Made by a program: the position numbers and the translations under genes. 33,293 nucleotides of DNA from Azospirillum sp. (GTDB taxonomy: Bacteria > Pseudomonadota > Alphaproteobacteria > Azospirillales > Azospirillaceae): contig JAIXTS010000392.1 in NCBI GenBank assembly GCA_027483805.1, positions 1-33,293 on the forward strand, written 5' to 3'. The notes beneath the pieces are model-generated. The model made no database searches and was not told the origin of the DNA. It saw nothing but the letters and a program-made list of their open reading frames with translations. Below are positions 16,712 to 33,293 of the stretch, one piece after another. Every line of letters starts with the position of its first letter. Within the stretch, counting starts at the first letter, position 1.

Positions 16712-17991
16712 CATGCCGGCTTTCGGGTCAGCACGATCCAGCCGGGCACCGGGTTGCCCCGGTCGATACGGGTGCTGTGGGGCGCAAGGTGGACCAGCGT
16801 CAGGCCTGCGGCCTGCACCGTCTGCTTTATATGGGCCTCACCATGGGCAAAGCGCCGCCCCTCATGCAGGGCGAAACCGTCGCCTTGCGCGCGTTCACAG
16901 GTGAAGGCAAAACGGCCACCGGGCCGTAAGGTGACCGAAGCCGCCGCCATGACCGGGTGCAGATCACCGACATAGACCAGCACATCCGCCGCCAGCACCA
17001 GATCGAACGCGTCGGGTCGCGCGGCCATGCTGTCCACCAGTTCGCCGACCCACAGCGCATCATAGACGGCGCGGGCCTGGGCCTTTTCCACCATGCGCGG
17101 CGACAGGTCGAAACCGGCCAGATAATCCGCGCGGTCGCGGACCGCCACCCCGGCCAGCCCCGTGCCACAGCCGGCATCCAGCACCCGGCCCCCGGCGGGC
17201 ACCTGCTGGTCCAGCAGCAGCTGGCGCAGGGCCTGCGGCGCGTCATAGCGCAGCTTGCCCACCAGTTCCCGGTCAAACCGGTCGGCATAGGTATCGAACA
17301 GGGCGCGGACAAAGGCCGGCGGCAGGCTGGTCTGCCGGCCTGCCTCTGCCAGGCCCGCCAGCAGCGGGGCCGCACCCGCCGGGTCGGCCTCGTCCAGGTC
17401 CAGTGCTGCCTGCCACGCCTTGGCCGCCTTTTCCGGTTCCCCCAGATGCTGCCAGGCCCGACCCAGGGCGACCCAGCCGGCGGGCTGTGCCGGGTCGGCG
17501 GGATGGGCGTGGCGCAGGGCGGCGTCCAGCATCTCCACCGCCGCCAGCGCCTCATCCGCATCAACCAGCACCAGGGCGGTGGCGGTCATGATGGACAGAT
17601 CGGCCGGCGCCAGGAACCGGGCTTCGCGCGCATGGGCCAGGGCCGCCTCCCGGTCGCCCGCATCCAGGGTCAGGCGCGCCATGGATGCCTGTCCCGCCGC
17701 ATCGCCCGGCTGCCTTGTCAGCAGGGCGCGGCAGGCCAGCAATGCCGCCTCCCGCCGCCCCGCCGCCATCAGGGCCGTGACCAGCGCCCGGTGCCAGGGC
17801 GTGTGGCCAGGGTCCGCCGCCAGGGCCTGTGACAGGGCCTCCGCCGCGTCCGCCGCCTGGCCATCCTCCAGCAGCAATTCGCCCAGCAAACCCGCCGCCT
17901 CCGCCCCTTCCGCGCTGCGCAGGCAGGCCATGGCGCCCGCCCGGTCCTGGCAATCCAGCAATTCATAGGCGCGGGTGATGGCATCGGACAT
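16711..17991 (-). CDS. TPR-containing class I SAM-dependent methyltransferase
   Basis: Protein of 426 residues in two parts. Residues 1-210 are a run of TPR-like helices (AGLLGELLLEDGQAADAAEALSQALAADPGH and similar repeats). Residues 220-426 are a class I methyltransferase with the SAM-binding VLDAGCGTGLAG, the acidic end of strand 2 (AGFDLSPRMV) and DLVLAADVLVYVGD. This matches the family of predicted methyltransferases with TPR repeats (COG4976-like). The substrate is unknown. The ATG at 17991 has AGGA six bases upstream. No signal peptide is visible, so it is cytoplasmic. It appears to be a single-gene unit, ending in the shared terminator. Confidence 0.88.
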   Translation of the reverse strand: MSDAITRAYELLDCQDRAGAMACLRSAEGAEAAGLLGELLLEDGQAADAAEALSQALAADPGHTPWHRALVTALMAAGRREAALLACRALLTRQPGDAAGQASMARLTLDAGDREAALAHAREARFLAPADLSIMTATALVLVDADEALAAVEMLDAALRHAHPADPAQPAGWVALGRAWQHLGEPEKAAKAWQAALDLDEADPAGAAPLLAGLAEAGRQTSLPPAFVRALFDTYADRFDRELVGKLRYDAPQALRQLLLDQQVPAGGRVLDAGCGTGLAGVAVRDRADYLAGFDLSPRMVEKAQARAVYDALWVGELVDSMAARPDAFDLVLAADVLVYVGDLHPVMAAASVTLRPGGRFAFTCERAQGDGFALHEGRRFAHGEAHIKQTVQAAGLTLVHLAPHSTRIDRGNPVPGWIVLTRKPA

Positions 17992-18309
17992 GGCGAATCC
18001 TGGTCTTTGACGGGGGGCAACAGGGGCGTCGAAACGGCGCTATAGCATGTTCCGGGGTTCCTGGCAGGGGCCGCAGACAGCAAAAAATCCCGCTTATGTG
18101 ACAAAGTCGCATCAACTTGGACGATTCTTGGTTGACCCAATGCGTCAATTCTGGGATTGCTATGCGGCCGGTGCATGAAGCCGGTGACTTTGAGGGAGCG
18201 GCCACCGCATTTGAGTAACGGTGGTCTGATTGCAGGACCCGCACGGAAAGCGGGACAAACCGGCGGGGAGACCCGTCATGGATAACCGGAACCAGAAGGG
18301 ACGATTGAG
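17992..18309. other. Intergenic region before the transglycosylase gene
   Basis: About 320 bases between divergent genes. It contains TTGAC-N7-GTCAA and, near its end, a short leader ORF (both listed separately). Nothing else with coding character is visible. Confidence 0.45.
18132..18148. promoter_or_regulatory. TTGAC-N7-GTCAA inverted repeat, possible operator or -35 region
   Basis: TTGAC (18132-18136) and GTCAA (18144-18148) are perfect inverted halves. The left half could also be a -35 element (TTGACC), with GATTGC 17 bases further on as a poor -10. It lies about 165 bases before the transglycosylase start. The regulator is unknown. Confidence 0.35.
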
Positions 18310-18313
18310 ATGA
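18278..18313 (+). CDS. Possible 11-residue leader peptide coupled to the transglycosylase gene
   Basis: An ATG at 18278 has GGGGAG seven bases upstream, a better ribosome site than most genes here. The reading frame runs 11 codons (rich in Asn, Arg and Lys) and stops with TGA at 18311-18313, overlapping the ATG at 18310 as ATGA. This geometry would couple translation of the transglycosylase to the leader. It is too short to have recognisable function and could be accidental. Confidence 0.35.
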   Translation: MDNRNQKGRLR

Positions 18314-18978
18314 CGATGCGCCAATCCCGCGTTGCCACCCGCTCCCGTCAGGATTCCAACCTGCTGCTCGCCTTCGCCTTTCTGATCGGTCTGATGATCC
18401 TGGCCCTGCCGGCCCGCGCCGGTTGCCTTGACCATATTGTTGAGGCCGAGAAGGAAATGGGCATTCCCAAGGGCATCCTGCTGGCCGTTTCGCTGGTTGA
18501 AAGCGGCGGTGGCGGCACGCCCAGCCCGTACATCATGAATGTGCGCGGCCGTGTCCTGTTCCCCCGGTCGGAGGCCGAAGCCGCCACCTACCTGCGCGAT
18601 AATCAGGGCAACCTGCGCGGCAATGTCTATGCCGGCTGCATGCAGCTGTCGCTGGCCCATCACAAGCAGGCCTTCCGTCCGGTCGAGAAGATCGTGAACC
18701 CGGAAGCCAATGTGCGCTACGCCGCCAAATATCTGATTTCGCTGCGCCGTGAAACCGGAAGCTGGGCCGCCGCCGTCACCAAGTATAACGGTTCCTCCGG
18801 TGTGAAGGCCGCCGCCTATCAGTGCAAGATCAAGAACCAGCTGGTCAGCCTGGGTGCCGGGTCCAGTGCCGAATTGATCAGCACGTCGGGCAAGTGCGAT
18901 GTCAGCAATCCGCCGTCGGTCGGTCCCCGCACCCGCCGGGCGTTTGAGAAGCATGACGAGAATACGCCCGTCGGCTGA
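18310..18978 (+). CDS. Exported lytic transglycosylase-like protein (SLT domain)
   Basis: Protein of 222 residues with an N-terminal signal peptide or anchor (hydrophobic core near residues 18-36, ending LPARA) and a compact SLT fold. The catalytic Glu is probably that of SLVESG near residue 63. The usual GLMQ motif appears as GCMQLSLAHH, and NPEANVRYAAKYL plus AAVTKYNG complete the domain. The mature part has four cysteines (GCLD, AGCM, YQCK, GKCD), enough for two disulfides. Members of this superfamily cut peptidoglycan glycan chains, often to let flagella or secretion systems through. The ATG at 18310 has AAGGGA eight bases upstream; ATG at 18316 is possible. Confidence 0.85.
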   Translation: MTMRQSRVATRSRQDSNLLLAFAFLIGLMILALPARAGCLDHIVEAEKEMGIPKGILLAVSLVESGGGGTPSPYIMNVRGRVLFPRSEAEAATYLRDNQGNLRGNVYAGCMQLSLAHHKQAFRPVEKIVNPEANVRYAAKYLISLRRETGSWAAAVTKYNGSSGVKAAAYQCKIKNQLVSLGAGSSAELISTSGKCDVSNPPSVGPRTRRAFEKHDENTPVG

Positions 18979-19128
18979 TGCGTCGGCCCGCATAGGGTCA
19001 CCGGCGGCACTCTTTAAAATCATATCAACGCGCCTGCCCATGTCAGCCATGTGAAGGACGGGCTGGTATCGCAATGCGGTATGGCGCACGCATGACGGCG
19101 TCCGTCACGTTCGCCGAACCTGAGCTTC

Positions 19129-20070
19129 ATGCCGCGCCTTGCCACATTGCCGCCTGTCGCCCGCGCCATCCTGGCGATGATCGCGGCCGTCACGCTGTTC
19201 AGCGCCATGAATGCCAGCATCAAATGGCTGGGCGGGCGCTATCCGGTCAGCCAGATCATCTTTTTCCGCGCCCTGTTCGCCATGGTGATCCTGCTGCCAC
19301 TGATCTGGCGGGCCGGCGGGATCATGTCGCTGCGGACCAAGCGGCCCCTGGGCCATCTGGCGCGCAGTATCATCGGCGTGATCTCAATGACCTGCGGGTT
19401 TACCGCCATCACCTATCTGCCACTGGCCAATGCCTCGGCCCTGGCCTTCACCGCCCCCTTGTGGACAACCTTGCTGGGCGTGCTGGTGCTGGGGGAAAAG
19501 GTGCGCTGGCGCCGGACGGTGGCACTGGTGGTGGGGTTCACGGGCGTGCTGATCATGGTGCGGCCTGACGCGGCCCTGCTGCATGGCATCATGACGGGCG
19601 GCACTCAGGCCATCGGCAGCCTGTTCGGCCTGGCCTCCTCCTTCCTGGCCGCCTGCGCCATGATCTCCGTGCGGCGCCTGTCCGCGACGGAGCCCAGCAC
19701 CAGCATCGTCTTCTATTTCATGGCCACCGGCATCATCGTGGCCGGCATCGCCATGTCGCGCGAATTCGTGATGCCGACGCCGCATGATGCGGCCCTGCTG
19801 GTGCTGCTGGGCACTGTCGGCGGGCTGGCCCAGGTACTGCTGACCACGGCCTATCGCGGGGCTCCCGTGGCCGTGATCGCCCCGTTCGATTACACGGCCA
19901 TGCTGTGGGCCACCGGTTATGGCTTCCTGATCTGGGGAGAGGTTCCGCATCCGGCCGTGGCGGTGGGGGCCTTGATCGTGATCGCCAGTGGTGTCTACAT
20001 CACCGTGCGCGAAACCCGCCTGGGCGTGACCAGTCCCGTCAAGGCCCAGACCATCACGAAGAACAGCTGA
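19129..20070 (+). CDS. EamA/DMT superfamily transporter
   Basis: Inner-membrane protein of 313 residues with about ten hydrophobic helices arranged as two EamA repeats. The first repeat starts at AILAMIAAVTLFSAMNASIKWL and shows FRALFAM and the conserved LANASALAFTAPLWTTLLGVLVLGEKV. The second starts near residue 155 and has GAPVAVIAPFDYTAMLWATGYGFLIWGEVP. Family members export amino acids, nucleosides or drugs; the substrate cannot be inferred. The ATG at 19129 places the first helix at the expected distance; the ribosome site is weak. The stop lies one base before rlmJ, so the two are translated from one message. Confidence 0.93.
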   Translation: MPRLATLPPVARAILAMIAAVTLFSAMNASIKWLGGRYPVSQIIFFRALFAMVILLPLIWRAGGIMSLRTKRPLGHLARSIIGVISMTCGFTAITYLPLANASALAFTAPLWTTLLGVLVLGEKVRWRRTVALVVGFTGVLIMVRPDAALLHGIMTGGTQAIGSLFGLASSFLAACAMISVRRLSATEPSTSIVFYFMATGIIVAGIAMSREFVMPTPHDAALLVLLGTVGGLAQVLLTTAYRGAPVAVIAPFDYTAMLWATGYGFLIWGEVPHPAVAVGALIVIASGVYITVRETRLGVTSPVKAQTITKNS

Positions 20071-20071
20071 G

Positions 20072-20935
20072 ATGAATTACCGCCACGCCTTCCATGCCGG
20101 CAATGCCGCCGACGTCATGAAGCACGCTGTCCTGGCCTGGCTGCTGGACCGGTTGTGCGGCAAGGATACGCCGTACTTCGTGCTGGATACCCATGCCGGC
20201 ATCGGCCGTTACGATCTGGACGACCAGGCCGCCGGCCGCACGGGCGAGGCGCTGCGCGGCATCCGCCGGGTCCTGGCCGGCAACGGTGCGGCGGCCCTGC
20301 CCGACGGGGCAGCCCCCTATCTGGCCCTGCTGGCCCGGCTGAATGACGGGACCGGCATTGTACGCCACTATCCCGGCTCCCCCCTGATCACCCGCATGAT
20401 GATGCGCGAACAGGATCGGCTGGTCCTGGCCGAACTGCATGCCGATGACGTGCAGACCCTGCGCGGCGTCTTCCGGGGGGATGGGCAGGTGTCAGTCCAT
20501 CACATGGATGGCTGGCTGTCGCTGAAGGCGCATCTGCCGCCCAAGGAACGGCGCGGTCTGGTGGTCATCGATCCCCCGTTCGAGGCGCCGGATGAATATG
20601 AACGGATGGTGGCGGCTCTGGCCCTGGCTCACCGCCGCTGGGCCACGGGCCAGTATCTGCTCTGGTACCCGGTGAAGGACCGGGCCGCCGTCTGGCGATT
20701 CCATCAGATGCTGGAAGATACCGGCATCCCCAAGATGCTGGCAGCCGAACTCTGTTGGTCCGATGATGACCGCTCCGACCGGCTGAACGGGTCCGGCCTG
20801 ATCCTGGTCAACCCGCCCTGGAAGACGCAGGAAACCCTGTCCGCCCTGCTGCCCGCCTTGCAAAGCGGGCTGGCGGCGGGGTCCGGCCCCGTCGGCTGCC
20901 GCTGGCTGCGGGACGAAAATGGCAAACCGGCCTGA
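20072..20935 (+). CDS. rlmJ: 23S rRNA (adenine(2030)-N6)-methyltransferase RlmJ
   Basis: Methylates N6 of A2030 in 23S rRNA using SAM. The 287-residue protein starts with the highly conserved MNYRHAFHAGNAADVMKHAVL, continues with YFVLDTHAGIGRYDL (SAM-binding segment), YPGSP, and carries the catalytic motif DPPFE in VVIDPPFEAPDEYE. The C-terminal LNGSGLILVNPPW block is also typical. Only one base separates it from the transporter gene, implying translational coupling, though a functional link is not obvious. Confidence 0.96.
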   Translation: MNYRHAFHAGNAADVMKHAVLAWLLDRLCGKDTPYFVLDTHAGIGRYDLDDQAAGRTGEALRGIRRVLAGNGAAALPDGAAPYLALLARLNDGTGIVRHYPGSPLITRMMMREQDRLVLAELHADDVQTLRGVFRGDGQVSVHHMDGWLSLKAHLPPKERRGLVVIDPPFEAPDEYERMVAALALAHRRWATGQYLLWYPVKDRAAVWRFHQMLEDTGIPKMLAAELCWSDDDRSDRLNGSGLILVNPPWKTQETLSALLPALQSGLAAGSGPVGCRWLRDENGKPA

Positions 20936-21090
20936 ATACAGGTTTAGTTCCTTCATCTTTTGGTCATTGATCGCGTCTTGCAGGCGCCGCTGCCTTCCGT
21001 CAAAGTGCGAATGTGCCGTGCCGCACCCGATGGTATGAAACCTTTCGGACAGGTCGTGGTCGGCAATCGGGGGATTGGGGAGAGATGGGA

Positions 21091-21831
21091 ATGGTGCATA
21101 CGCCGCGGCGGCCCTTCATGGCGGAAATCCAGATGGCCAAGAGGTCGCCCACCCCCCGCGCGGGGGAAGCGGCGCTGGCCGGTCCTGGTCCCGCCCTGCC
21201 CGCCCCGCCGCCGGCCCCCATCCATGTTGAGATGGACAACAGCGAAGTGATGTCGGCCATCGGCGCCCTGGGGGCGAAGCTGGACCGGTTTCTGAGCGTT
21301 GATCACACCCAGATCGAAAAAATTCAGATCGAAATCTCCGACATCGCGGGCCGGATCAAGGCCACGAAGGTAGAGATGGCGGCCCTGCGCCACCCGCTGT
21401 CCAATCAGGACACCTTCCTGGAGGCCAGCGAACAGCTGTCCGCCGTGGTGCGCGCAACGGAAACGGCGACCAACAGCATCATTTCCGCCGCCGAGGAGAT
21501 TGAGGATATTGTCAGCGAGGTGCGGTCGCAGCTGCCCGAAGGCTATCAGAGCAGCCGCCTGAAAGACCTGAACGACATCACCCTGCGTATTTTCGAGGCC
21601 TGTAACTTCCAGGATCTGACCGGTCAGCGCATCACCAAGGTGGTGCAGGCGCTGGCCTTCATTGAAGAGCGTATCGACGGCATGATGTCCGTCTGGAACA
21701 CCAAGGAATTCGAGGCGATGCCCCTGCCGCCCGACATCTCCAAACATGATGCGGGTCTGGCCCTGCACGGGCCGCAGGAAGATAAGCCCAGCAGCATTTC
21801 CCAGGCCGATATCGACGCGCTGTTCGACTGA
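21091..21831 (+). CDS. cheZ: Chemotaxis protein phosphatase CheZ
   Basis: Dephosphorylates CheY-P to reset the flagellar motor signal. The 246-residue chain has a Pro/Ala-rich N-terminus, a long helical hairpin (about 70-200) and the catalytic block FQDLTGQ, with Asp175 and Gln179 equivalent to Asp143 and Gln147 of the E. coli enzyme. A flexible linker leads to the last residues, SISQADIDALFD. That tail resembles the CheY-binding N-terminus of FliM (LSQAEIDALL) rather than the VDDLLDSLGF-type tail of the enteric protein. The ATG at 21091 has GGGGAG eight bases upstream; ATG at 21085 and 21118 are alternatives. No other che or flagellar gene is in the window. Confidence 0.93.
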   Translation: MVHTPRRPFMAEIQMAKRSPTPRAGEAALAGPGPALPAPPPAPIHVEMDNSEVMSAIGALGAKLDRFLSVDHTQIEKIQIEISDIAGRIKATKVEMAALRHPLSNQDTFLEASEQLSAVVRATETATNSIISAAEEIEDIVSEVRSQLPEGYQSSRLKDLNDITLRIFEACNFQDLTGQRITKVVQALAFIEERIDGMMSVWNTKEFEAMPLPPDISKHDAGLALHGPQEDKPSSISQADIDALFD

Positions 21832-21966
21832 GACCAATCTCCCTCGCGCGGGACCGATCAAGAGGGATTTCATGGTCCCTCTGGCGCCAGTCGCCGGGCT
21901 TAAATCTGTCAAAGGGTAAGCCTTCGGCATATTTGTATAATCCGGGCGCCCCCCCCCGGCGGAACG

Positions 21967-22374
21967 TCACGCCACGTTCCGCCGCACCATGTCTTCCAAC
22001 CGCATCGTCCGCATGTAAAGGCTGTGGCTGCGTTCCAGCAGGGATCGCAGGGCATTGGGCAGCCCCTGATTGTCCGGGCCGGACGGGTCGGCGCAGATGG
22101 CCCCGCCGGACAGGGCGTAGTCATCGCCCACCGCCTGCTGCTGGGTCAGTTCGCCGGCATGGACCGCCTTCTGCGCCAGCATCCAGGCCATGACCTGGGT
22201 CAGGCGGCTGGTAACCCGCATGCTTTCATAAGATACCTGCAGACGAACGGTCGGTGGCAGGCCGCGCTGGTCCGCCGCCTCCTGATAGGCGACATAGTTC
22301 CGTGCCTCGACCAGAAGCGACATGGTCTCGTCATAGGCGCGGTTGAAGAAGGCCGTCGGTCGGGTCACCCGCAT
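21967..22374 (-). CDS. DUF1465 family protein
   Basis: Helical protein of 135 residues belonging to DUF1465, a family found mainly in Alphaproteobacteria and of unknown function. The recognisable part is ETMSLLVEARNYVAYQE followed by VSYESMRVTSRLTQVMAWMLAQKAVHAGELT. The C-terminal half (ALRSLLERSHSLYMRTMRLEDMV) looks like a further helix. The ATG at 22374 has a purine-rich GGAGGGAG run immediately upstream. A longer open frame continues upstream but lacks conserved sequence. It is divergent from the Hsp20 gene. A run of nine C lies just beyond its stop codon. Confidence 0.85.
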   Translation of the reverse strand: MRVTRPTAFFNRAYDETMSLLVEARNYVAYQEAADQRGLPPTVRLQVSYESMRVTSRLTQVMAWMLAQKAVHAGELTQQQAVGDDYALSGGAICADPSGPDNQGLPNALRSLLERSHSLYMRTMRLEDMVRRNVA

Positions 22375-22524
22375 CTCCCTCCGACCTTCATCACGCCCTG
22401 CCGGGCGCTCCGAAGGCCGTGAACAGTGGATCAGTGTGGCCCCTTCGATCCCGACTGACAATTGCGGCGAAAGGAGGTGATGGGTGCCGACACCGTTTGA
22501 TGCGGCATGTGACATTTTTTGAAG

Positions 22525-22559
22525 CCCCCTCTTGAAGGGGGATTGGACGCTGCTTAATT
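22525..22559 (+). promoter_or_regulatory. Candidate heat-shock (RpoH) promoter of the Hsp20 gene
   Basis: CTTGAAG at 22531-22537 matches the -35 element of alphaproteobacterial RpoH promoters and lies inside a perfect inverted repeat (CCCCCT-CTTGA-AGGGGG, 22525-22541). A weak -10-like GCTTAATT follows at 22552-22559. Transcription would then start near 22566, just ahead of the first thermometer hairpin, which fits. The -10 is a poor match. Confidence 0.45.
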
Positions 22560-22574
22560 GTTGAAGCGTGGAAG

Positions 22575-22671
22575 CGACGCCCGGTGTCGGGGTCGAAAAA
22601 CGCCACAAAACCAAGGGGCTGGCCGATATCGGGAGCCCCGCCCACCTAAGTATCGCTCCTGGAGGATACCT
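22575..22671 (+). ncRNA. ROSE-type RNA thermometer in the Hsp20 5' leader
   Basis: Three consecutive hairpins fill the leader. SL1 is at 22575-22595 (CGAC-CCCG stem with one bulged G). SL2 is at 22615-22639 (GGGGCT paired with AGCCCC, with further internal pairing). SL3 is at 22650-22669 and sequesters the ribosome site. In SL3, UCGCU (22653-22657) faces AGGA of the Shine-Dalgarno (22663-22666) with a single bulged G, exactly the UYGCU signature of ROSE elements. ROSE leaders block translation at normal temperature and melt on heat shock. Name and role rest on this motif and on the Hsp20 gene starting at 22672. Confidence 0.85.
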
Positions 22672-23136
22672 ATGCGCAGCTATGACCTCTCGCCGCTGTT
22701 CCGTTCCACCGTCGGTTTTGACCGCATGACGCGCCTGCTGGAAAGCGCGCTGAGTGGTGAGGATAACGGCCAGAACGCCTACCCCCCGTACAATATCGAA
22801 AGGCTGGACGACGACCAGTACCGCATCACGATGGCGGTCGCCGGTTTCTGCCTGGGTGATCTGGAAATCACCGCCCATCCCAACCTGCTGATCGTACAGG
22901 GCAAGGCCAAGGAGCAGCAGGGCGGCACCTTCCTGCATCGGGGCATCGCAGGCCGCGCCTTTGAACGCCGGTTCCAGTTGGCCGACCATATCCGCGTGAA
23001 CAACGCGTCGCTGGAAAACGGTCTTCTGCATATCGAACTGGTGCGGGAGGTGCCGGAAGCCATGAAGCCCCGCACTGTTCAGATCAACAACCTGACCCCC
23101 ACCGCCCTGCCGGGCGTGACCCAGGCCGCCGCCTGA
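22672..23136 (+). CDS. Small heat shock protein, Hsp20/IbpA family
   Basis: ATP-independent holdase of 154 residues that binds unfolding proteins in the cytoplasm. The N-terminus MRSYDLSPLFRSTVGFDRM is typical of IbpA-like proteins. The alpha-crystallin domain (about 38-130) begins PPYNIERLDDDQYRITMAVAGF, includes LLIVQGKAKE and FERRFQLADHIRVNNASLENGLLHIELVRE, and has the A-x-L-x-N-G-L-L motif. The C-terminus lacks a clear IXI motif, although VQINNL may serve. The ATG at 22672 has GGAGGA five bases upstream, and the ROSE hairpin covers that site, so translation is probably heat-induced. A strong terminator lies downstream. Confidence 0.96.
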   Translation: MRSYDLSPLFRSTVGFDRMTRLLESALSGEDNGQNAYPPYNIERLDDDQYRITMAVAGFCLGDLEITAHPNLLIVQGKAKEQQGGTFLHRGIAGRAFERRFQLADHIRVNNASLENGLLHIELVREVPEAMKPRTVQINNLTPTALPGVTQAAA

Positions 23137-23138
23137 CA

Positions 23139-23157
23139 CCCGGATCGCTGGTCCGGG
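23139..23157 (+). repeat. GC hairpin just after the Hsp20 stop
   Basis: CCCGGA (23139-23144) pairs with TCCGGG (23152-23157) around seven bases. No T-run follows, so it is more likely an RNA-stabilising hairpin than a terminator. Confidence 0.4.
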
Positions 23158-23240
23158 CGGGGGTCCCGGTCACCCGCGTTCCCGTCCCCGCCCGTCTGAC
23201 GACGGTCAATTGGGAACACACATTGATAGGCAAATAAAAA

Positions 23241-23274
23241 GAGGGCCGCTACGTTGGCGGCCCTCTGTTTTTTT
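23241..23274. terminator. Strong rho-independent terminator between Hsp20 and prpE
   Basis: GAGGGCCGC (23241-23249) and GCGGCCCTC (23257-23265) pair perfectly around a seven-base loop. TG plus seven T follow on the plus strand and an A-rich run precedes it, so it can also end the convergent prpE transcript. The remaining bases up to 23429 hold nothing recognisable. Confidence 0.93.
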
Positions 23275-23429
23275 ACCCGTTTCCCTGAAGCCCCACCCGT
23301 TCAACTCTGCCGAACGAGCAAGGCGACCCTATGTGCGCGACGGCTTCGGGTCAACCGGCCTTATCCGCCTGACAACGATGACCGTAAAGAAATCGTCATG
23401 ATTGTTGCCGAATTAGCGCACCCCTTATC

Positions 23430-25328
23430 CTATCCTTTCGCATAGCCGACGCCTTTCAGGGCGTCGCCGATCTCTCCCAGGATGGCAGGGTCATCAATGG
23501 TGGCCGGCATTTTCCAGGGCTCGCTGTCGGCGATCTTCTGCATGGTACCGCGCAGGATTTTGCCCGACCGTGTCTTGGGCAGGCGTTCCACAACGATGGC
23601 CTGTTTGAAGGCGGCGACCGGCCCGATCTCGTCCCGCACCTTCTTCACCACTTCCTTGATGATGTCGGCATAGGGCCGGTCTACACCGCGCTTCAGAACA
23701 ATGAAGCCCAGCGGCAATTGCCCTTTCAGATCGTCCGCCACGCCGATCACGGCGCATTCGGCCACATCCGGATGGCCCGACAGCACCTCTTCCATGGCGC
23801 CGGTCGACAGGCGGTGGCCGGCGACATTGATAATGTCATCGGTGCGGGCCATGACATAGATATAGCCGTCATCATCGATGAAGCCGGCATCCGACGTCTG
23901 ATAATATCCGGGGAAATCCGCCAGATAGCTTTTGAAGAACCGGTCACGTGCGTTCCACAAGGTTGGCAGCGTGCCTGGCGGCAGCGGCAGTCGGGCTACG
24001 ATGGCGCCGATATCGCCGCGCTTCACCTCCGTCCCGTCCGGGGCCAGGACACGGATGTCCCATCCCGGCAGCGGGACAGCGGTGCTGCCATATTTCACCT
24101 TCATCAGGCCGATGCCCAGCGGATTGCCGGCCACGGGCCAGCCGGTTTCCGTCTGCCACCAATGGTCGATGACCGGCACCTTCAGATGGGTTTCGGCCCA
24201 GTTCAGCGTGTCCGGATCCGACCTTTCCCCCGCCAGGAACAGGGCGCGCAGGCTGGACATGTCGTAGTCGTGCAGCAATTCGCCACTCGGGTCCTCCCGC
24301 TTGATAGCGCGGAAGGCGGTGGGGGCCGTGAACTGCACCGTCACCTTGTGCTCGGCGATGACCCGCCAGAAGGCGCCGGCATCGGGCGTGCCCACCGGCT
24401 TGCCCTCATAGACCAGGGTGGTACAGCCCTGCAGCAGCGGGCCATAGACGATATAGGAATGGCCCACGACCCAGCCGACATCACTGGCGGCCCAGAACAC
24501 TTCGCCCGGCCTGGCGCCATAGAAATGCTCCATGGTCCATTTCAGGGCCACGGCATAGCCGCCAATATCGCGCACCACGCCCTTGGGCTGCCCGGTCGTG
24601 CCCGATGTGTACAGGATATAGAGCGGGTCGGTGGCTTCCATCGACACGCATTCCGCCGGTGCCGCCAGCGCCGCCGCTGCCGCCCAATCGACATCGCGGC
24701 CGGGCAGCAGCGTTGCCGCCACCTGGGGACGCTGAAAGATCACGCAATGATCAGGCTTGTGGCTGGCCTGTTCGATGGCGGCATCCAGCATGGGCTTATA
24801 GGGCAGGACCTTGGTCCCTTCCACACCACAGCTGGCGGTCAGGATGGCCTTGGGCGTGGCATCATTGATGCGGGTGGCCAGTTCATGCGGCGCAAAACCG
24901 CCAAAGACGACGGAATGGATGGCCCCGATGCGCGCACAGGCCAGCATGCCCACCACCGCCTCCGGGATCATCGGCATATAGATGATGACCCGGTCCCCCT
25001 TCTCCACCCCAAGATCGCGCAGAACCCCGGCAAAGCGCGCGACCTTGTCCAGCAGTTCGGCATAGGTCAGCGTCTGTTTCACGCCGGTGACGGGGCTGTC
25101 ATAGATCAGGGCGGCCTGATCCGCCCGCCCGCCGGCCACGTGCCGGTCCAGCGCATTGTGGCAGATGTTCAGCCGCCCGCCGCGATACCAGCGGTAGAAC
25201 GGCTTGTCGCTGTCATCCAGGATGGTTTCCGGGAAGGCATCCCAATCGATGGCCGTGGCCGCTTCCGCCCAGAAACCCGTCGGGTCGGCCAGGGAACGGG
25301 CATGGATGGAATGGTAGGCATCGTTCAT
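23430..25328 (-). CDS. prpE: Propionyl-CoA synthetase (acyl-CoA synthetase, PrpE type)
   Basis: Adenylate-forming ligase that converts propionate (and often acetate) to the CoA thioester through an acyl-AMP. The 632-residue chain shows the P-loop YTSGTTGQPKGVV, the ligand-binding WWQTETGWP, the hinge and nucleotide block YYQTSDAGFIDDDGYIYVMARTDD followed by HRLSTGAMEEVL, and the catalytic Lys590 in RSGKILRG. The pattern VRDIGGYAVALKWTM and the AMEEVLSGHPDVAECAVIGV block fit PrpE better than Acs. The ATG at 25328 has GGGGAGGA four bases upstream, and a longer open frame to 25508 is unneeded. The 2-methylcitrate genes prpB, prpC and prpD are not adjacent. Confidence 0.92.
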   Translation of the reverse strand: MNDAYHSIHARSLADPTGFWAEAATAIDWDAFPETILDDSDKPFYRWYRGGRLNICHNALDRHVAGGRADQAALIYDSPVTGVKQTLTYAELLDKVARFAGVLRDLGVEKGDRVIIYMPMIPEAVVGMLACARIGAIHSVVFGGFAPHELATRINDATPKAILTASCGVEGTKVLPYKPMLDAAIEQASHKPDHCVIFQRPQVAATLLPGRDVDWAAAAALAAPAECVSMEATDPLYILYTSGTTGQPKGVVRDIGGYAVALKWTMEHFYGARPGEVFWAASDVGWVVGHSYIVYGPLLQGCTTLVYEGKPVGTPDAGAFWRVIAEHKVTVQFTAPTAFRAIKREDPSGELLHDYDMSSLRALFLAGERSDPDTLNWAETHLKVPVIDHWWQTETGWPVAGNPLGIGLMKVKYGSTAVPLPGWDIRVLAPDGTEVKRGDIGAIVARLPLPPGTLPTLWNARDRFFKSYLADFPGYYQTSDAGFIDDDGYIYVMARTDDIINVAGHRLSTGAMEEVLSGHPDVAECAVIGVADDLKGQLPLGFIVLKRGVDRPYADIIKEVVKKVRDEIGPVAAFKQAIVVERLPKTRSGKILRGTMQKIADSEPWKMPATIDDPAILGEIGDALKGVGYAKG

Positions 25329-25546
25329 TGTATCCTCCCCGTGATTTTCTGCTTTCAGTGGTGTATCGGCCGCTATATCTAAGCCCATTCGCTTATGGAA
25401 ACCCCCGGTACGAGTGGGATAGAAACGGACCATTACCACCGCGACGTCCTGAGCCTGACTCAGCCGGAACGCGCGTGCGGATTCATCCCCGACCTTGGTC
25501 TGCGACATTCGTGCGCGTCATTGCCAGACCGAAAGCTTTTGCCCCC

Positions 25547-25897
25547 ATGATCGTTGACAGCCGCCATATCATGTTTTCCCCGGAAGCCGTCCGGGAGGCC
25601 GTCAAGACTTTCCGCGAACTGTTTCCAACCAAGCAGCCGCCCGGCTTGCTGGGTCCCATCGTCATCCGCAGCGCCGATCCCCTGGTCCTGGGCGTGAAGG
25701 TACAGGCCACGGGGTCCAGCACCTATCGCGAGGTGGAGATGGAAGAGAGCGAGGTGGCCGCCATGCTGATCGTCTTCTGCCGGAAGATCAAAATTCCCCT
25801 GCCCCGCACGGCCAATAAATCGATCGAGGTGGAGGGCGACAACATCGCCCTGATCGTTTCCAAAGCCATGATGATGCAGCGCGCCGCAGGCGCCTGA
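25547..25897 (+). CDS. Conserved-looking hypothetical protein of 116 residues
   Basis: I do not recognise this protein. The frame has the GC-rich third positions of its neighbours and no competing ORF. It is predicted to be soluble: an N-terminal amphipathic helix (FSPEAVREAVKTFRELFP), a beta-rich middle (LLGPIVIRSADPLVLGVKVQATGSSTYREVEMEESEVAAMLI) and a basic C-terminal part (RKIKIPLPRTANKSIEVEGD). There is no signal peptide or membrane segment. The ATG at 25547 is chosen because conserved-looking sequence begins there; the ribosome site (GAAAG) is weak. It is divergent from prpE across about 220 bases and followed by a palindromic repeat. Confidence 0.7.
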   Translation: MIVDSRHIMFSPEAVREAVKTFRELFPTKQPPGLLGPIVIRSADPLVLGVKVQATGSSTYREVEMEESEVAAMLIVFCRKIKIPLPRTANKSIEVEGDNIALIVSKAMMMQRAAGA

Positions 25898-25931
25898 ACT
25901 CTCAGACCGAAAACGGCCCTGGCAGGGTGCG

Positions 25932-26032
25932 TTAGAGCCCATCAGGTGTTCATAGAAACACCTGATGGGCTCTAAGCTTCTGTTTTGTCGTGTGATTCAC
26001 GGTTTCAACGTTACCATTTAAACCGATCACAC
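25932..26032. repeat. Two-palindrome intergenic repeat element
   Basis: The first palindrome has perfect 19-base arms (25932-25950 and 25957-25975) around a six-base loop, with outer ends TTAGAGCCC and GGGCTCTAA. The second is imperfect: GTGTGAT-TCA-CGGTTT (25990-26005) against AAACCG-ATCACAC (26020-26032), the left arm having three extra bases. The pair fills the gap between the unknown gene and the YibQ-like gene. AGAGC...GCTCT-ended palindromes dispersed in intergenic DNA are known from many Alphaproteobacteria, so I infer a repeat family. The first hairpin could also act as a terminator, since TGTTTTG follows it. Confidence 0.75.
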
Positions 26033-26033
26033 T

Positions 26034-27380
26034 CTAGCGGTCGGCCTGCCGGTTCACCACCGCCGTCACCGGCGCCAGGACGATCCCCCGGTCACGCAGC
26101 CCCGCCGACCAGGCCGACAGCCGTTCCAGGCTGACGGGATTGCTGACTTCCGCGAAGCCCACCGCCGCACCATTGGCCTGGGCCAGCCGTTCCAGCTGTG
26201 CCAGCTGGGCATCGATGCCGATGCCCGACGGGATACGGTCGATCTGCAGGTCGCTGATGGCGCGCGGCAGCGACAATTCCTTGGACACGGCCGCCGCCTT
26301 GCTGCCCGACACCTGCCAGAGATCGAGATAGACAAGGCCACGGCGCTGCACCTGCAATAGCACGCCGCGCAGGCTCTCGCGCTGGGTGAGGAAATCCGTG
26401 CCGCTGTCGGTTTTTGAGGTCACGCCGACATAACCGGTAAAGGCCGCCAGCGTGGCCTCCAGCCGCCGTACATTCTCTTCGTCCGACAGGTTCGACAGAA
26501 GCGTGTTGGGTCCGGGATCGTTGGCAGGAAAGCCCTGCGGCTGCATCGGCACCGACAGCAGCACCTCATGCCCCTTGGCCCGCACCTCGTCCACCTTGGC
26601 CTGCAAATTCTCCGCCGTCGGGGTGAAGGCAAAAGTAACGGCACCGGGAAGTCGGTCAACCGCCTCGTGCATGGCGGTGTCCGACAGGCCCAGGCCCGTC
26701 ACAACGATGGCGATACGTGGCCGTTTGTCATCCTGCGGAAAGGGCCGTGCATAATATTGCCAGGGGGCGGTGCCGTCCGGCGCCACGCGCGGCACCCGGC
26801 CGACGCGCAGCCGCTCCAGCAGCTGATCATTGCGCGACGGGGTCAGGGTGACGGGCATGTCCACCGGGTCCAGCGGCACCTCTTCCTCCGGCGCTGGCGG
26901 GGCCGCATCGGCAAAGCGTGGCGTGCCGTCGGGCAGCAGCACGGGCACGCCCTGGCCCAGGCTGCGGGTCGCATCCAGCCGCCGCATGGTGTCCGGTGCC
27001 TGGATGGCCAGCCACCCCGCCGTCCCGGCCAGGGCCAGGACAAGAACCATGGCGCCGATCACGGGCGGCGACGGCTTGCCGAGTTTCTTCCGTTCCTTCC
27101 GCTCCCCCGTGAGGCCGGGCGCATCATCCCCGACGCCGGGGCCGTGGTCCTCATCGGCCATGAAGGCCAGATCCATGGCATCGGCGGACGGTGCGGCGGC
27201 CTTGGCCTTCTTGCTCTTGCGGCCGAAGGACCAGCGTTTGCCATCCTTCTTGGCCGCACGGTCATGCGCCTTGGCCTGGCGCTTGGCCCCCAGCCGGGAA
27301 GCCAATACGGCAGCACTTCCCCCATCCCCGGGCGGAGCGGCTTCCGTCTTTTTCTTCCTGGAGAGCGGGAACAAGGCCAC
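26034..27380 (-). CDS. Divergent polysaccharide deacetylase family protein (YibQ-like, DUF610)
   Basis: Protein of 448 residues. The N-terminal 105 residues are cytoplasmic, highly basic and Ala/Lys-rich. One transmembrane helix follows (VIGAMVLVLALAGTAGWLAI), then a Pro-rich periplasmic linker, and from about residue 225 a divergent NodB-like fold (RIAIVVTGLGLSDTAMHEAVDRLPGAVTFAFTP, then GHEVLLSVPMQPQGFPANDPGPNTLL). The family keeps the fold of polysaccharide deacetylases; its role with CtpA and EnvC in envelope maintenance is inferred from gene order. The GTG at 27380 is the start, with a weak ribosome site, 21 bases after ctpA. It is the last gene of the operon, next to the repeat element. 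Confidence 0.88.
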   Translation of the reverse strand: MALFPLSRKKKTEAAPPGDGGSAAVLASRLGAKRQAKAHDRAAKKDGKRWSFGRKSKKAKAAAPSADAMDLAFMADEDHGPGVGDDAPGLTGERKERKKLGKPSPPVIGAMVLVLALAGTAGWLAIQAPDTMRRLDATRSLGQGVPVLLPDGTPRFADAAPPAPEEEVPLDPVDMPVTLTPSRNDQLLERLRVGRVPRVAPDGTAPWQYYARPFPQDDKRPRIAIVVTGLGLSDTAMHEAVDRLPGAVTFAFTPTAENLQAKVDEVRAKGHEVLLSVPMQPQGFPANDPGPNTLLSNLSDEENVRRLEATLAAFTGYVGVTSKTDSGTDFLTQRESLRGVLLQVQRRGLVYLDLWQVSGSKAAAVSKELSLPRAISDLQIDRIPSGIGIDAQLAQLERLAQANGAAVGFAEVSNPVSLERLSAWSAGLRDRGIVLAPVTAVVNRQADR

Positions 27381-27401
27381 GGTGCGGGTGCTTTGGCTCG
27401 G

Positions 27402-28826
27402 TTAGTTGGTGTGTTTGGGCTGGTTGAACAGGGAAACACCGCGCAGCAGATCAACGGCGCGGGCCAGCTGATAATCGACCGGCGGCGCGTCGGCATTGCT
27501 GTTGGCGGCCACGGGCGTCGCCGCCGGATTGGGTGCGGCGGCCGGGGCCGGCGGTGTCGCCGCCGCACCTGGCGCGGGGGCGGGGGTGGAAGCCGGTGCC
27601 GGCTTGGCCGCCGCCCCCTGATCGGTGTTGCGCAGGGCGTTGGGCAGGTCGGCCTCACGCCGGCGCTGTCCGGCCGCCGCCAGTTCCTCAATCTTGGCGG
27701 GCTGCACCTCGATATCCGGGGTGATGCCCAGCTGCTGGATCGACTTGCCCGACGGGGTGTAATAGCGCGAGGTGGTCAGGCGCATGGCGCTCTGCTGCCC
27801 CTGCAACGGGATGATGGTCTGCACCGACCCCTTGCCGAAGCTCTGCGTGCCCAGGATGATGGCGCGCTTATGGTCTTGCAGGGCGCCGGCAACGATCTCC
27901 GATGCCGACGCGGAGCCGCCATTGATCAGCACCACGACGGGCAGGCCATCGGCGACATCGCCGGCCTTGGCCGTGTAACGGTCGCCTTCCTTGCCCCCGC
28001 GTCCACGGGTGGACACGATCTCCCGGCCCTTGTCCAGGAATGTATCGGACACCGAAACAGCCTGATCCAGCAACCCGCCCGGATTGTTGCGCAGGTCCAG
28101 CACATAGCCGATCAGCTTGGACCCCAGCTGTTCCTTCAGCTTGGCCATGGCCTTGTCCAGGCCGGGCTGCGTCTGCTCATTGAAGCTGGAGATGCGGATA
28201 TAGCCGACATTATTCTCGGCGCGGAACCGCACGGACTGCACCTTGATGCTGGCGCGGGTCAGGTTCAGCTGGATCGGCTCGGCCACGTTCTGGCGACGGA
28301 TGGTGACCTTGATATCGCTGCCCACGGGGCCGCGCATCTTCTCCACCGCATCGTTCAGCGACAGGCCGACGATCTGCTCATCATTCAGATGGGTGATGAA
28401 ATCACCGGGCTGCACCCCGGCGCGGGCGGCGGGCGTGTCATCCATGGGGGAGATGACCTTGACGAATCCGTTCTCCGTCGTCACCTCGATGCCCAGACCG
28501 CCGAACTCGCCCCGGGTCTGCACCCGCATATCGGCGAAATTCTTCTTGTTCAGATAGGAGGAATGGGGATCGAGCGAGGTGAGCATGCCATCAATGGCCG
28601 CCTCGATCAGCTGCTCGTCGGAAACCTCTTCGACATATTCCGACCGCACCCGCTCGAACACATCGGCGAACAGGTCCAGCTGCTTGTAGGTTTCCGACTT
28701 CAGCGGTTCGCGCGCCTGCGCACTGCCCGTCACGCCCAGGGGGGCGGTGCCAAGGGGAACGGTGCCAAGGGGAACGGTGAAGGCCAGCAGGGCCGCGATG
28801 GCGGCAGTGGAGAACAGCTTGTTCAT
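27402..28826 (-). CDS. ctpA: Carboxyl-terminal processing protease, S41 family
   Basis: Periplasmic serine protease that trims C-termini of envelope proteins, including peptidoglycan hydrolases and their regulators in other bacteria. The 474-residue chain has a signal peptide with an unusual repeated VPLGT segment, an N-terminal helical region, a PDZ domain (about 85-170, GLGIEVTTENGFVKVISPMDDTPAARAGVQPGD) and the catalytic domain with DLRNNPGG, the Ser-containing NGGSASASEIVAGAL and the Lys of GKGSVQ. The C-terminal 75 residues begin with an Ala/Pro-rich low-complexity segment. The ATG at 28826 follows AAGG by seven bases and lies two bases after the envC stop. Confidence 0.96.
   Translation of the reverse strand: MNKLFSTAAIAALLAFTVPLGTVPLGTAPLGVTGSAQAREPLKSETYKQLDLFADVFERVRSEYVEEVSDEQLIEAAIDGMLTSLDPHSSYLNKKNFADMRVQTRGEFGGLGIEVTTENGFVKVISPMDDTPAARAGVQPGDFITHLNDEQIVGLSLNDAVEKMRGPVGSDIKVTIRRQNVAEPIQLNLTRASIKVQSVRFRAENNVGYIRISSFNEQTQPGLDKAMAKLKEQLGSKLIGYVLDLRNNPGGLLDQAVSVSDTFLDKGREIVSTRGRGGKEGDRYTAKAGDVADGLPVVVLINGGSASASEIVAGALQDHKRAIILGTQSFGKGSVQTIIPLQGQQSAMRLTTSRYYTPSGKSIQQLGITPDIEVQPAKIEELAAAGQRRREADLPNALRNTDQGAAAKPAPASTPAPAPGAAATPPAPAAAPNPAATPVAANSNADAPPVDYQLARAVDLLRGVSLFNQPKHTN
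28731..28780 (-). repeat. 15-bp tandem repeat inside the CtpA signal peptide
   Basis: Two identical 15-base units (28746-28760 and 28761-28775) are flanked by a partial and a degenerate copy. The unit is a multiple of three and encodes the five-residue repeat VPLGT, so copy-number changes would lengthen or shorten the signal peptide without a frameshift. Confidence 0.75.
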
Positions 28827-28828
28827 GA

Positions 28829-30079
28829 TCAACCTTGTCCTTTGCCGTCGGAGGCTGCAAGGCCGCGCGCGGGGTTGACAGGCTGACCACCACGCCGCAG
28901 CTCGTAATACAAACTCGGGTCCCCATCCCCCGACAGAAGTCCCACCGGCTCCCCGCCCAGCACGCGCTGTCCCACCTGGGCATCGATACGTCCCAGGCCG
29001 GACAGAAGGGAATGATATCCGTTGGCATGTTCAAGGATCAAGAGAAGCCCGTATCCCTTAAACGGTCCCGCGAACATCACCGCCCCGTCGGCTGGTGCAA
29101 CAACGGGGCCACCGGCCCGGCCGCTGTAGGTCAGACCCCGGCTGGTCGCCCCCACATCGTCCGTCTGACCATAACGTCTGACCACCTTGCCGCTGACCGG
29201 CGCCACCATGCCGCCGAGGATGCCGGCCGATTGTGGCTCGGCCGGGGCGCGTTTCAGGCCTGCCACCCTGTCGCGGGCCCGCTTCTCACGGTCGGCCTCA
29301 AGCTGGGCCTGACGCTGCCGCTCGGCCTCCGCCTTGCGTGCCGCCTCGGCCTTGCGCTCGGCTTCCAGCTTCTCGATCAGGTCCTTCAGGTCGCCCGCCT
29401 TCTCCCCCAGCGAGGCGACGCGTGTCGACAGCCGCGCACGCTCACTGTCGGTATTCTTCGACAGTTCCTCGCGCCGCGCCACCAGCACGGCCAGATCCCT
29501 CTGGCGCAGGGCCAGGCTTTCCGCGGCCCGCGCCGTCTTGTCCTTCTGTTGCGCCAGTTGCCGGCGCAGATCGACCAGACCCTGCAATTCCCTGGACAGG
29601 GCATCGGCACGGGTTTTCAGCTCCGGAACGGCGGACCGCAGCAGCAGCGCGCTTTTCACCGTGTCGCTGGGTGATTGCGGGGCCGCGATCATCGTATCGG
29701 GCGGCAGGCGGGACAGGCGCTGCAAGGCACCCAGAAGATCGGCCAGGGCGGCGCGGTCGGCCTCGATCCTGTCCAGCCTTGCCTTCTCCTCCTCACCCAG
29801 ATCGCCCAGGGCGCTTTCCAGCCGGGCCAGTTCATCGGACTGGCTGCGCTGCTGATCCGCCGCCTCGATGGCACGGGCGCGCAGGTCGGCCAGCTCCTTT
29901 TCCAGCGCTTCGGCCTTGGCGTCCAGCTGTGCCTTGGCCTTGTCCGCCTCCTGCAGGTCGCGCTCCACCTGCTGCAGCTGCTTGGCCGGATCGGGCTTCT
30001 TCTCCTGCGCCAGAACGGGTGCCGCCAGCAGGGCCGGCAGCAGCATCAGAGTGATAACGGGCGGATAACGCAGGGACAC
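28829..30079 (-). CDS. envC: Murein hydrolase activator, EnvC-like (coiled coil plus LytM)
   Basis: Periplasmic division factor of 416 residues. A signal peptide ends at VLA (about residue 24). A long coiled coil with many Ala, Glu, Lys and Gln occupies residues 28-275, and a LytM/peptidase M23 domain fills about 290-405. The zinc ligands of active M23 enzymes are missing: RGLTYSG stands where a His should be, LSGLG replaces the HxH region and YYELR the final His. This is the state seen in EnvC, which activates amidases rather than cutting peptidoglycan itself. The GTG at 30079 is used, with a weak ribosome site. It leads the envC-ctpA-yibQ operon. Confidence 0.92.
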   Translation of the reverse strand: MSLRYPPVITLMLLPALLAAPVLAQEKKPDPAKQLQQVERDLQEADKAKAQLDAKAEALEKELADLRARAIEAADQQRSQSDELARLESALGDLGEEEKARLDRIEADRAALADLLGALQRLSRLPPDTMIAAPQSPSDTVKSALLLRSAVPELKTRADALSRELQGLVDLRRQLAQQKDKTARAAESLALRQRDLAVLVARREELSKNTDSERARLSTRVASLGEKAGDLKDLIEKLEAERKAEAARKAEAERQRQAQLEADREKRARDRVAGLKRAPAEPQSAGILGGMVAPVSGKVVRRYGQTDDVGATSRGLTYSGRAGGPVVAPADGAVMFAGPFKGYGLLLILEHANGYHSLLSGLGRIDAQVGQRVLGGEPVGLLSGDGDPSLYYELRRGGQPVNPARGLAASDGKGQG

Positions 30080-30193
30080 GCAAACAGTTTCCCGAATCGG
30101 AACAAGATTTAAGATGAAGGATACCGCGTAAGCCGTTGATCTGCCATCGGCATACAGGACATTCCCCCCTTATGCTGGCAGTGTACGGGCAAG

Positions 30194-30239
30194 CGCGGGC
30201 GGCGTCGATGGGGCAGAAGGCCCGCCGGCACCGCCCGCG
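30194..30239 (-). repeat. Long-loop inverted repeat downstream of the VWA gene
   Basis: CGCGGGCGG (30194-30202) and CCGCCCGCG (30231-30239) are perfect inverted copies around a 28-base loop, directly after the VWA gene stop. There is no T-run, so termination is uncertain. It lies between the VWA gene and envC on the same strand. Confidence 0.4.
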
Positions 30240-30242
30240 GCC

Positions 30243-31433: not shown

Positions 31434-31488
31434 GGGATGGGCAGGTCCGGGTATCGGGATTCATCTGGCGGCCAGCATAGCACAGGGC

Positions 31489-32871: not shown

Positions 32872-33054
32872 GCCACCCTTCCCCACCACGCAGGCCGGTG
32901 GTGCCGTCCCCCGGCAAAGCTATCGCGGGAATGCCCCATTCCAACAGGCGTAAGCATCAACCCTCCCCGGCCCATCCCGCAAGCCCGCGCAGGGTGGTCA
33001 GCAAAAAAGGAGCGGTGATGGCCGGATTGTGGCCGAACATGATATCGCAAAAAT

Positions 33055-33093
33055 ATTTGCATAAAGCATAAACTCTCAAAGTGATTTGCAAAT
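33055..33093 (+). promoter_or_regulatory. Paired ATTTGCA boxes, possible activator sites
   Basis: ATTTGCAT at 33055-33062 and the perfect palindrome ATTTGCAAAT at 33084-33093 lie 29 bases apart, about 100-130 bases upstream of the predicted start of transcription. That is where enhancer-binding activators of sigma-54 promoters usually sit. The activator is unknown. Confidence 0.4.
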
Positions 33094-33162
33094 TACAACG
33101 ATTTGTCGCCCCACCGTGCCGCCCATCCCCGGATTTCCGTCATTTTCCCGCCCCCACTCGAT

Positions 33163-33179
33163 TGGCATACCCCCTGCAA
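33163..33179 (+). promoter_or_regulatory. Candidate sigma-54 (RpoN) promoter
   Basis: TGGCAT-ACCCC-CTGCAA has the invariant GG (33164-33165) and GC (33176-33177) exactly ten bases apart, as required for -24/-12 promoters. The flanks match TGGCAY and TGCA well. Transcription would start near 33189, about 48 bases before the ATG at 33237. Confidence 0.55.
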
Positions 33180-33236
33180 TCCTTGGTTCCCATGAAGGCG
33201 ACAACGCCACAACAGATTGAACCGACGGAGCCCGAC

Positions 33237-33293
33237 ATGACCAAGTTCTTCGCCAAGACCGCCGCCGCCGCCCTGATCGCCACCGCCTTCGCC
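33237..33293 (+). CDS. Start of an exported protein (5' end only)
   Basis: Nineteen codons from ATG 33237 to the window edge, with GGAG six bases upstream. They encode a basic start (MTKFFAK) followed by an Ala-rich hydrophobic segment, that is, the beginning of a Sec signal peptide. The mature protein is outside the window and cannot be named. The upstream sigma-54 promoter suggests control by nitrogen, carbon or another RpoN-dependent signal. Confidence 0.75.
   Translation, partial: MTKFFAKTAAAALIATAFA

Follow-up and report, generated by a model that had tools for sequence, protein, structure and literature searches.

This locus raises the question of whether a small heat-shock gene in Azospirillum is controlled by an RNA thermometer folded into its own leader and, if so, what the remaining hairpins of that leader are for. 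The gene lies in a stretch of 33,293 nucleotides (contig JAIXTS010000392.1), the whole of which was analysed and is called here the window. From the letters alone, the leader had been read as a ROSE element: three hairpins ahead of the Hsp20 start, the last of them hiding the ribosome site by pairing UCGCU with AGGA around a single bulged G, and a CTTGAA heat-shock −35 element at the right distance upstream. Our account turns on the following features.

21967–22371, minus strand: DUF1465 gene, running away from hsp20
22531–22559, plus strand: putative sigma32-type promoter, CTTGAA (22531–22536) and CTTAATT (22553–22559), with a spacer of 18 after CTTG; read from the sequence
22575–22595, plus strand: hairpin 1, CGAC[G]CCCG, loop, CGGG GTCG, its 5' arm interrupted by one bulged G, G22579; from minimum-free-energy (MFE) folding, RNAalifold and pair counts
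22615–22639, plus strand: hairpin 2, GGGGCT GG CCG, loop, CGG G AGCCCC; from MFE, RNAalifold and pair counts
22650–22669, plus strand: hairpin 3, ROSE-type thermosensor, GUAUC[G]CUC CUG GAG GAUAC; from MFE, RNAalifold and conservation
22661–22666, plus strand: Shine–Dalgarno sequence (SD), GGAGGA, masked within hairpin 3; likewise a sequence assignment
22672–23136, plus strand: gene for an Hsp20/IbpA-type small heat-shock protein of 154 aa (Pfam PF00011, E 2.3e-17), starting with the ATG at 22672
23240–23266, strand not given: hairpin resembling a terminator and flanked by T runs, from a pattern scan that found two such hairpins versus 1.2 expected in shuffles

The protein itself is a close relative of familiar ones. 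It is 57% identical to Escherichia coli IbpA when the two are aligned, and its closest named relatives among the matches listed are 68–72% identical to it. These come from two species of Azospirillum and from a strain that is filed as Roseomonas, which makes a host of the family Azospirillaceae probable. Against the NCBIfam IbpA model it scores 169.3 bits, below the cut-off of 212. The leader occupies the space between the start of this gene and that of the divergent DUF1465 gene, whose sole NCBIfam match is to the protease adaptor RcdA (74.9 bits, below the cut-off of 170). A 390-aa open reading frame on the minus strand (21967–23139) also runs antisense across the entire hsp20 gene and its leader, and beyond the DUF1465 gene this frame is probably an artefact of high GC. 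Downstream, the hairpin at 23240–23266 is the probable end of the hsp20 transcript. The source genome comprises 5.2 Mb in 543 contigs, and one of these, C124 (locus L051), is syntenic with positions 16952–33291 of the window at approximately 87–88% DNA identity over the part compared. In view of this synteny we reject the idea that the twin Hsp20 gene on C124 is a paralogue; more probably, a second strain or species, related to the first, has been assembled together with it.

All three hairpins that had been claimed for the leader were recovered, both by MFE and by RNAalifold, and three lies within the range of two to four that characterizes the 5' UTRs of ROSE-controlled genes. Hairpin 3 folds as five pairs, the bulged G22655, three pairs and a loop at 22659–22661. 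Within it, UCGCU (22653–22657) pairs with the ribosome site in the manner described, U53 with A66, C54 with G65, C56 with G64 and U57 with A63 (giving the last two digits of each position), while G55 bulges out opposite the ribosome site, the AGGA part of which is 22663–22666. A U(U/C)GCU sequence with a bulged G is the published hallmark of ROSE elements (PMC3669281; PMC11342760), and here it stands paired to the SD directly before a small heat-shock gene, so the signature had been correctly recognized. Hairpin 2 is built differently from hairpin 1: it contains no single bulge, but a 2×1 internal loop in which GG (22621–22622) faces G22633.

The −35 element is where it was said to be. Together, CTTGAA and CTTAATT resemble the consensus of the alphaproteobacterial heat-shock promoter. 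The pattern CTTG N17–19 C[ACT][TC]A, which was chosen after the data were seen, occurs in 93 of 129 Hsp20 upstream regions versus 2.3 in shuffles; the stricter CTTG N17–19 CYTA, which the window also fits, occurs in only 33 of the 129, versus 0.5. A scan for sigma-70 promoters found nothing. Promoters for the heat-shock sigma factor are a usual trait of ROSE elements, though not a defining one, and from the putative promoter here transcription would start at about 22566–22569. Two layers of heat control, one on transcription and the other on translation, would then be the natural reading for this gene. The combination of sigma32 control with a thermometer is the published arrangement for ibpA of Pseudomonas (PMC3669281), and sigma32 and a thermometer acting on ibpA are also described elsewhere (PMC11342760).

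How widely is this leader shared? We assembled 129 Hsp20 leaders, 49 from a first set of genomes, window and twin included, and 80 from named loci, these being the best 80 of at least 590 confirmed and chosen by similarity of their Hsp20. The 129 are related by descent, and one contig is present twice (L041 is L101). In 128 of them the last 60 nt contain T[TC]GCT and, after it, an SD, as do 2.0% of dinucleotide shuffles, the thermosensor reading TCGCT in 91 and TTGCT in 37. These figures allow for loosened SD alternatives (AGGA, AGGG, AGAA, AGGT and AGTG) that were chosen after the data were seen; with AGGA strictly, 121 of the 129 qualify, and when only distinct leaders are counted the numbers become 127/128 and 120/128, respectively. 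The lone exception to T[TC]GCT is L047, with ACGCT, and it was left out of the hairpin counts below, for which n is therefore 128.

For structure, 25 family leaders, hand-picked for similar length, were aligned with MAFFT. Left out, among others, were L012, L014, L019, L021–L023, L026, L029, L030 and L033, the spacing upstream being different in L029, L030 and L033. Given this alignment and no structure, RNAalifold returns three hairpins. Paired cells amount to 95.2%, falling to 38–59% (at most 59.4%) when the partners are slid, and 10 of the 20 pairs show changes on both sides, versus a mean of 5.6 when columns are shuffled; none of 500 shuffles reaches 10. These compensated changes are unevenly spread. 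They occur in four of the seven pairs of hairpin 1, in which the bulged G is invariant (25/25) and the pair immediately beneath it is disrupted in three of the 25; in all five consensus pairs of hairpin 2, 89.5% of whose cells are paired; and in only one of the eight pairs of hairpin 3. Since hairpin 3 varies so little, its support is mainly conservation of sequence, and it is hairpins 1 and 2 that carry the covariation.

A covariance model built from the same alignment, R1, finds leaders of this kind and little else, with the proviso that it includes the SD and ATGCG, so that part of its score is start-site sequence. In the window's genome, where 150 of 4405 first-look candidates were scored, only the window leader and its syntenic twin match at E ≤ 1. 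Over 289 genomes of the class, 66 matched at E ≤ 0.01, at 68 places, four of the 66 being genomes that hold training leaders. We checked the 31 best-scoring of these 68 places, five of which had been trained on and 26 had not, and at all 31 the start of an Hsp20 gene adjoins the end of the match, on the same strand. Among the 80 named loci, three of which were training loci, R1 matches the leader in 71 at E ≤ 1 and in 58 at E ≤ 0.01; nine have no leader match at E ≤ 1, and four further matches fall outside leaders. One of these four, at 1632–1713 of L084 from Aeromonas dhakensis, lies just after ibpA and looks like a second thermometer, perhaps for another small heat-shock gene. At E ≤ 1 the model matches neither the E. 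coli loci nor the leader of L050, a second Hsp20 gene in the genome to which the window belongs. A companion model of the upstream hairpins only, R2, is weak: at E ≤ 1 over 78 loci it gives 17 matches, 13 in Hsp20 leaders and four elsewhere, and it misses E. coli.

The Rfam models had been named as a check by the sequence-only reading, a missing ROSE hit to count as its refutation, and at the curated cut-off the outcome is formally negative. At the gathering score, no family matches anywhere in the window; at a relaxed score, ROSE ranks first of four, at 22616–22678, with 18.6 bits versus a cut-off of 45 and an E of 1.8, so that RF00435 as curated does not take in this leader. In the relaxed alignment the model's first hairpin is placed on hairpin 2 of the window, and the other three matches, to the Trp leader, the L31 leader and SmY, we take to be chance. 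Searched over the window's own genome, the Rfam ROSE model has no match at E ≤ 10. Only two of 20 Hsp20 loci tested pass its cut-off, L109 (79.1 bits) and L116 (71.7 bits), both from Bradyrhizobium, while a third Bradyrhizobium locus, L122, falls below it, as do loci from Ensifer, Rhizobium, Azospirillum, Ruegeria and Aeromonas, for example. Since 18 of the 20 miss the cut-off, that the window misses it too is weak evidence. R1 and Rfam ROSE agree on the same two Bradyrhizobium leaders (R1 E 1.9e-5 and 1.1e-4). The E. coli ibpA leader, for its part, scores 100.4 bits against the ROSE_2 model, versus a cut-off of 65.

Might hairpin 3 be nothing but a chance pairing of the SD in a GC-rich leader, of no regulatory consequence? 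The shortfall against Rfam could be taken that way, and so could the folding energy, which is ordinary: as a whole, the window leader folds no better than shuffles of itself (z −0.54), 53 of 200 being at least as stable. Chance, however, would not conserve the thermosensor across so many leaders, nor supply the covariation, nor place an Hsp20 gene beside matches found by an RNA model alone, and we regard this explanation as very improbable indeed. ROSE identity rests on anatomy, on conservation, on covariation of the upstream hairpins, and on the Hsp20 link in every hit locus checked. We conclude that the leader of the window's hsp20 gene is almost certainly a ROSE-type RNA thermometer, its melting and its effect on translation being attributed by analogy. 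At growth temperature, hairpin 3 would pair UCGCU with GGAGGA, a pairing weakened by the bulged G22655, and translation would be low; heat, to judge by published relatives, would open the hairpin and give ribosomes access.

In nearest-neighbor folding, the mean unpaired fraction of the SD is 0.27 at 30°C and 0.31 at 42°C, hardly a change. Calculations of this kind give E. coli ibpA, an element validated in print, an exposure that falls on heating, and leave that of Bradyrhizobium leaders almost constant; they therefore count neither for nor against melting. Removing G22655 in silico deepens hairpin 3 from −6.6 to −10.4 kcal/mol at 37°C. This agrees with the published effect of removing the bulge, which lowers heat induction, and in combination with a second change abolishes it (PMC11342760).

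The less expected part of the leader lies upstream of the thermosensor. When the top single-bulge hairpin ahead of the SD hairpin is picked by a score that ignores which base is bulged, the base in the 5' arm proves to be G in 116 of the 128 leaders (A in 7, T in 2, C in 2 and none in 1), where shuffles give G in 26%. The same search shows no preference for G when the bulge is in the 3' arm (G 33, C 30, A 27, T 14, none 24). Folded by MFE, the 128 leaders show a lone bulged G in a 5' arm ahead of the SD hairpin 172 times, versus 7.6 times in shuffles; there are two in 63 leaders, one in 46 and none in 19. Over full leaders the count of such 5'-arm bulges is 260, where 112-nt pieces taken from elsewhere in these loci give 3–18 and the reverse complement gives 12. 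Thinning at 70% identity leaves 95 of the 128 leaders; these have 127 upstream 5' G bulges between them, and 14 have none. A count that uses no energies, of G-bulge hairpins with at least six outer pairs, finds them in 93 of the 128, versus 2–9 in three control sets, and the hairpin-1 signature YGCC..GGG is present in 96, versus 27.8 in shuffles. Hairpin 1 and the thermosensor thus have in common the core Y[G]CY against RGG, which is GC-rich in its upstream copy. The window leader has one upstream single-G bulge, that of hairpin 1.

Bulges of this sort also occur farther afield. The 80 named loci include six from gammaproteobacteria, of which four (L084, L095, L114 and L131) have at least one upstream G bulge, and two (L075 and L130) have none by MFE. 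L130 carries, in addition, a second UUGCU..GAGAGGA stretch upstream that resembles a duplicated thermosensor hairpin, although no such hairpin forms when the upstream part is folded by MFE. In E. coli ibpA, both upstream hairpins fold with a bulged G, by MFE and in a fold that lacks the SD hairpin. One upstream bulged G is already drawn in the Rfam structure of RF01832, and one in the first hairpin of RF00435. Passages of published work (PMC3669281, PMC4166951, PMC10434288, PMC3989490, PMC10474464, PMC12857270, PMC9450479 and PMC11342760) yielded no description of upstream bulged Gs; with the founding papers and all figures outside that scope, the literature may well show the pattern already.

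What are these upstream hairpins for? Their role in ROSE elements has been called ‘not fully understood’ (PMC3669281). One answer, which we consider reasonably probable, is that they insulate the thermosensor or guide its folding, or else protect the 5' end of the message, with the bulged Gs contributing to folding or to a tertiary contact, all in addition to the thermometer. We favor a role in folding because damage to the upstream hairpins impairs control: deletion of hairpins I–III weakens the temperature response of ROSE1 of Bradyrhizobium japonicum, and ibpA of Pseudomonas aeruginosa becomes derepressed at low temperature when four G-C pairs of hairpin I are broken (PMC3669281). The same source suggests that hairpin I may stabilize the mRNA, and the proximal hairpins of E. 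coli ibpA are reported to be closed from 20 to 50°C (PMC9450479). Help with folding does not, by itself, explain why the preference should be for G, and for the 5' arm and not the 3', in hairpins whose pairs change freely. Nor are upstream hairpins always needed, for the thermosensor hairpin alone confers thermoregulation in ibpA of Pseudomonas (PMC3669281) and in an oppF element (PMC11342760), and for that reason the bulged Gs upstream may owe their retention to another function.

That function might involve the protein product. In E. coli, IbpA represses its own message by binding to the leader, which depends on oligomers, on R93, and on side chains that are aromatic at position 34 and basic at 97 and 98; it seems to favor structured RNAs such as thermometers, no particular RNA feature being defined in the passages concerned (PMC10474464). 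Self-suppression is expected in alphaproteobacteria as well, from the conservation of R93 and Y34 (PMC10474464). In the window protein, Y37, R95, R99 and R100 align with Y34, R93, R97 and K98 of E. coli IbpA, so that it has every residue called for in the autorepressing type. Among 129 class A proteins, R93 has its equivalent in all, position 97 is R or K in all, position 98 is R or K in 120, and position 34 is Y in 126 and H, W and F once each. Since IbpA binds its own leader, and since the residues needed are kept in the window protein and in most of class A, it can be suggested that the upstream hairpins are docking sites, once again as an addition to the thermometer. Hsp20 oligomers would bind the tandem bulged-G hairpins through the conserved arginine and repress their own message until aggregates titrated the protein away, the third hairpin adding direct sensing of heat.

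We think this suggestion more likely wrong than right by some way, even though the great excess of 5'-arm bulged Gs over shuffles and control pieces speaks for it, and even though E. coli ibpA, whose protein does bind its own leader, has them in both upstream hairpins. Nineteen of the 128 leaders lack an upstream 5' G bulge by MFE, and hairpin 2 of the window itself has the internal loop in place of a single bulge. L153 lacks the equivalents of both R93 and Y34, and yet it keeps a bulged-G hairpin. Several leaders of class B genes keep bulged-G hairpins, too, although class B proteins have S or A at the position of K98 (17/17), so that no link was seen between the lack of R or K there and loss of the upstream bulged-G hairpins; in E. 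coli, however, IbpB is repressed by IbpA as well (PMC10474464). No test by co-variation is possible, because R93 hardly varies. A role in folding is the likelier of the two: probably the thermosensor folds with the aid of the two upstream hairpins, which, bearing as they do a single 5'-arm bulged G in most relatives, may also bind the protein that the message encodes.

The class B paralogues (L050 and L134–L149) have some features of their own. By a loosened pattern, a core like that of ROSE is present in 15 of the 17 leaders, usually as CUC[G]CUC against GAGGAG, and several of the genes seem to use GTG or TTG as start codons. In L050 (G000:C200), the core is CUCGCUC..GAGGGG.

One of the closest known systems is the rhizobial ROSE element (RF00435, Bradyrhizobium hspA), which likewise precedes a small heat-shock gene, sets UYGCU against the SD with a bulged G, and has a bulged G in its first hairpin, as does hairpin 1 of the window. 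It differs in sequence and in hairpin 2, its own middle hairpin being drawn without a bulge. ROSE_2 (RF01832, E. coli ibpA) shares with the window a small heat-shock gene of related product and the upstream bulged Gs, but its model, of 73 positions, begins only after the first hairpin. The short ROSE-like elements of Pseudomonas ibpA have the same U(U/C)GCU thermosensor hairpin and sigma32 control (PMC3669281), in two hairpins of approximately 60 nt where the window has three in approximately 105 nt. Also related are the ROSE-G elements of ABC transporters. They, too, have a G bulge opposite the SD, which is needed for their thermoregulation (PMC12857270), but they use CUGCU with two opposed bulged Gs, and they control other genes.

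A known family thus gains a member, and the ROSE thermometer is now placed in the Azospirillaceae. The repeat of the bulged G upstream provides a concrete handle both on the role of the 5' hairpins of ROSE elements and on the feature of RNA that IbpA recognizes. At its most general, and we offer this doubtfully, the leaders of alpha- and gammaproteobacterial small heat-shock genes might be tandem arrays of bulged-G hairpins, in which the labile copy at the SD would sense heat and the GC-rich, heat-stable copies upstream would form a multivalent platform for the oligomeric protein, held by its invariant arginine. If that were true, one RNA motif would serve two regulators, temperature and free chaperone.
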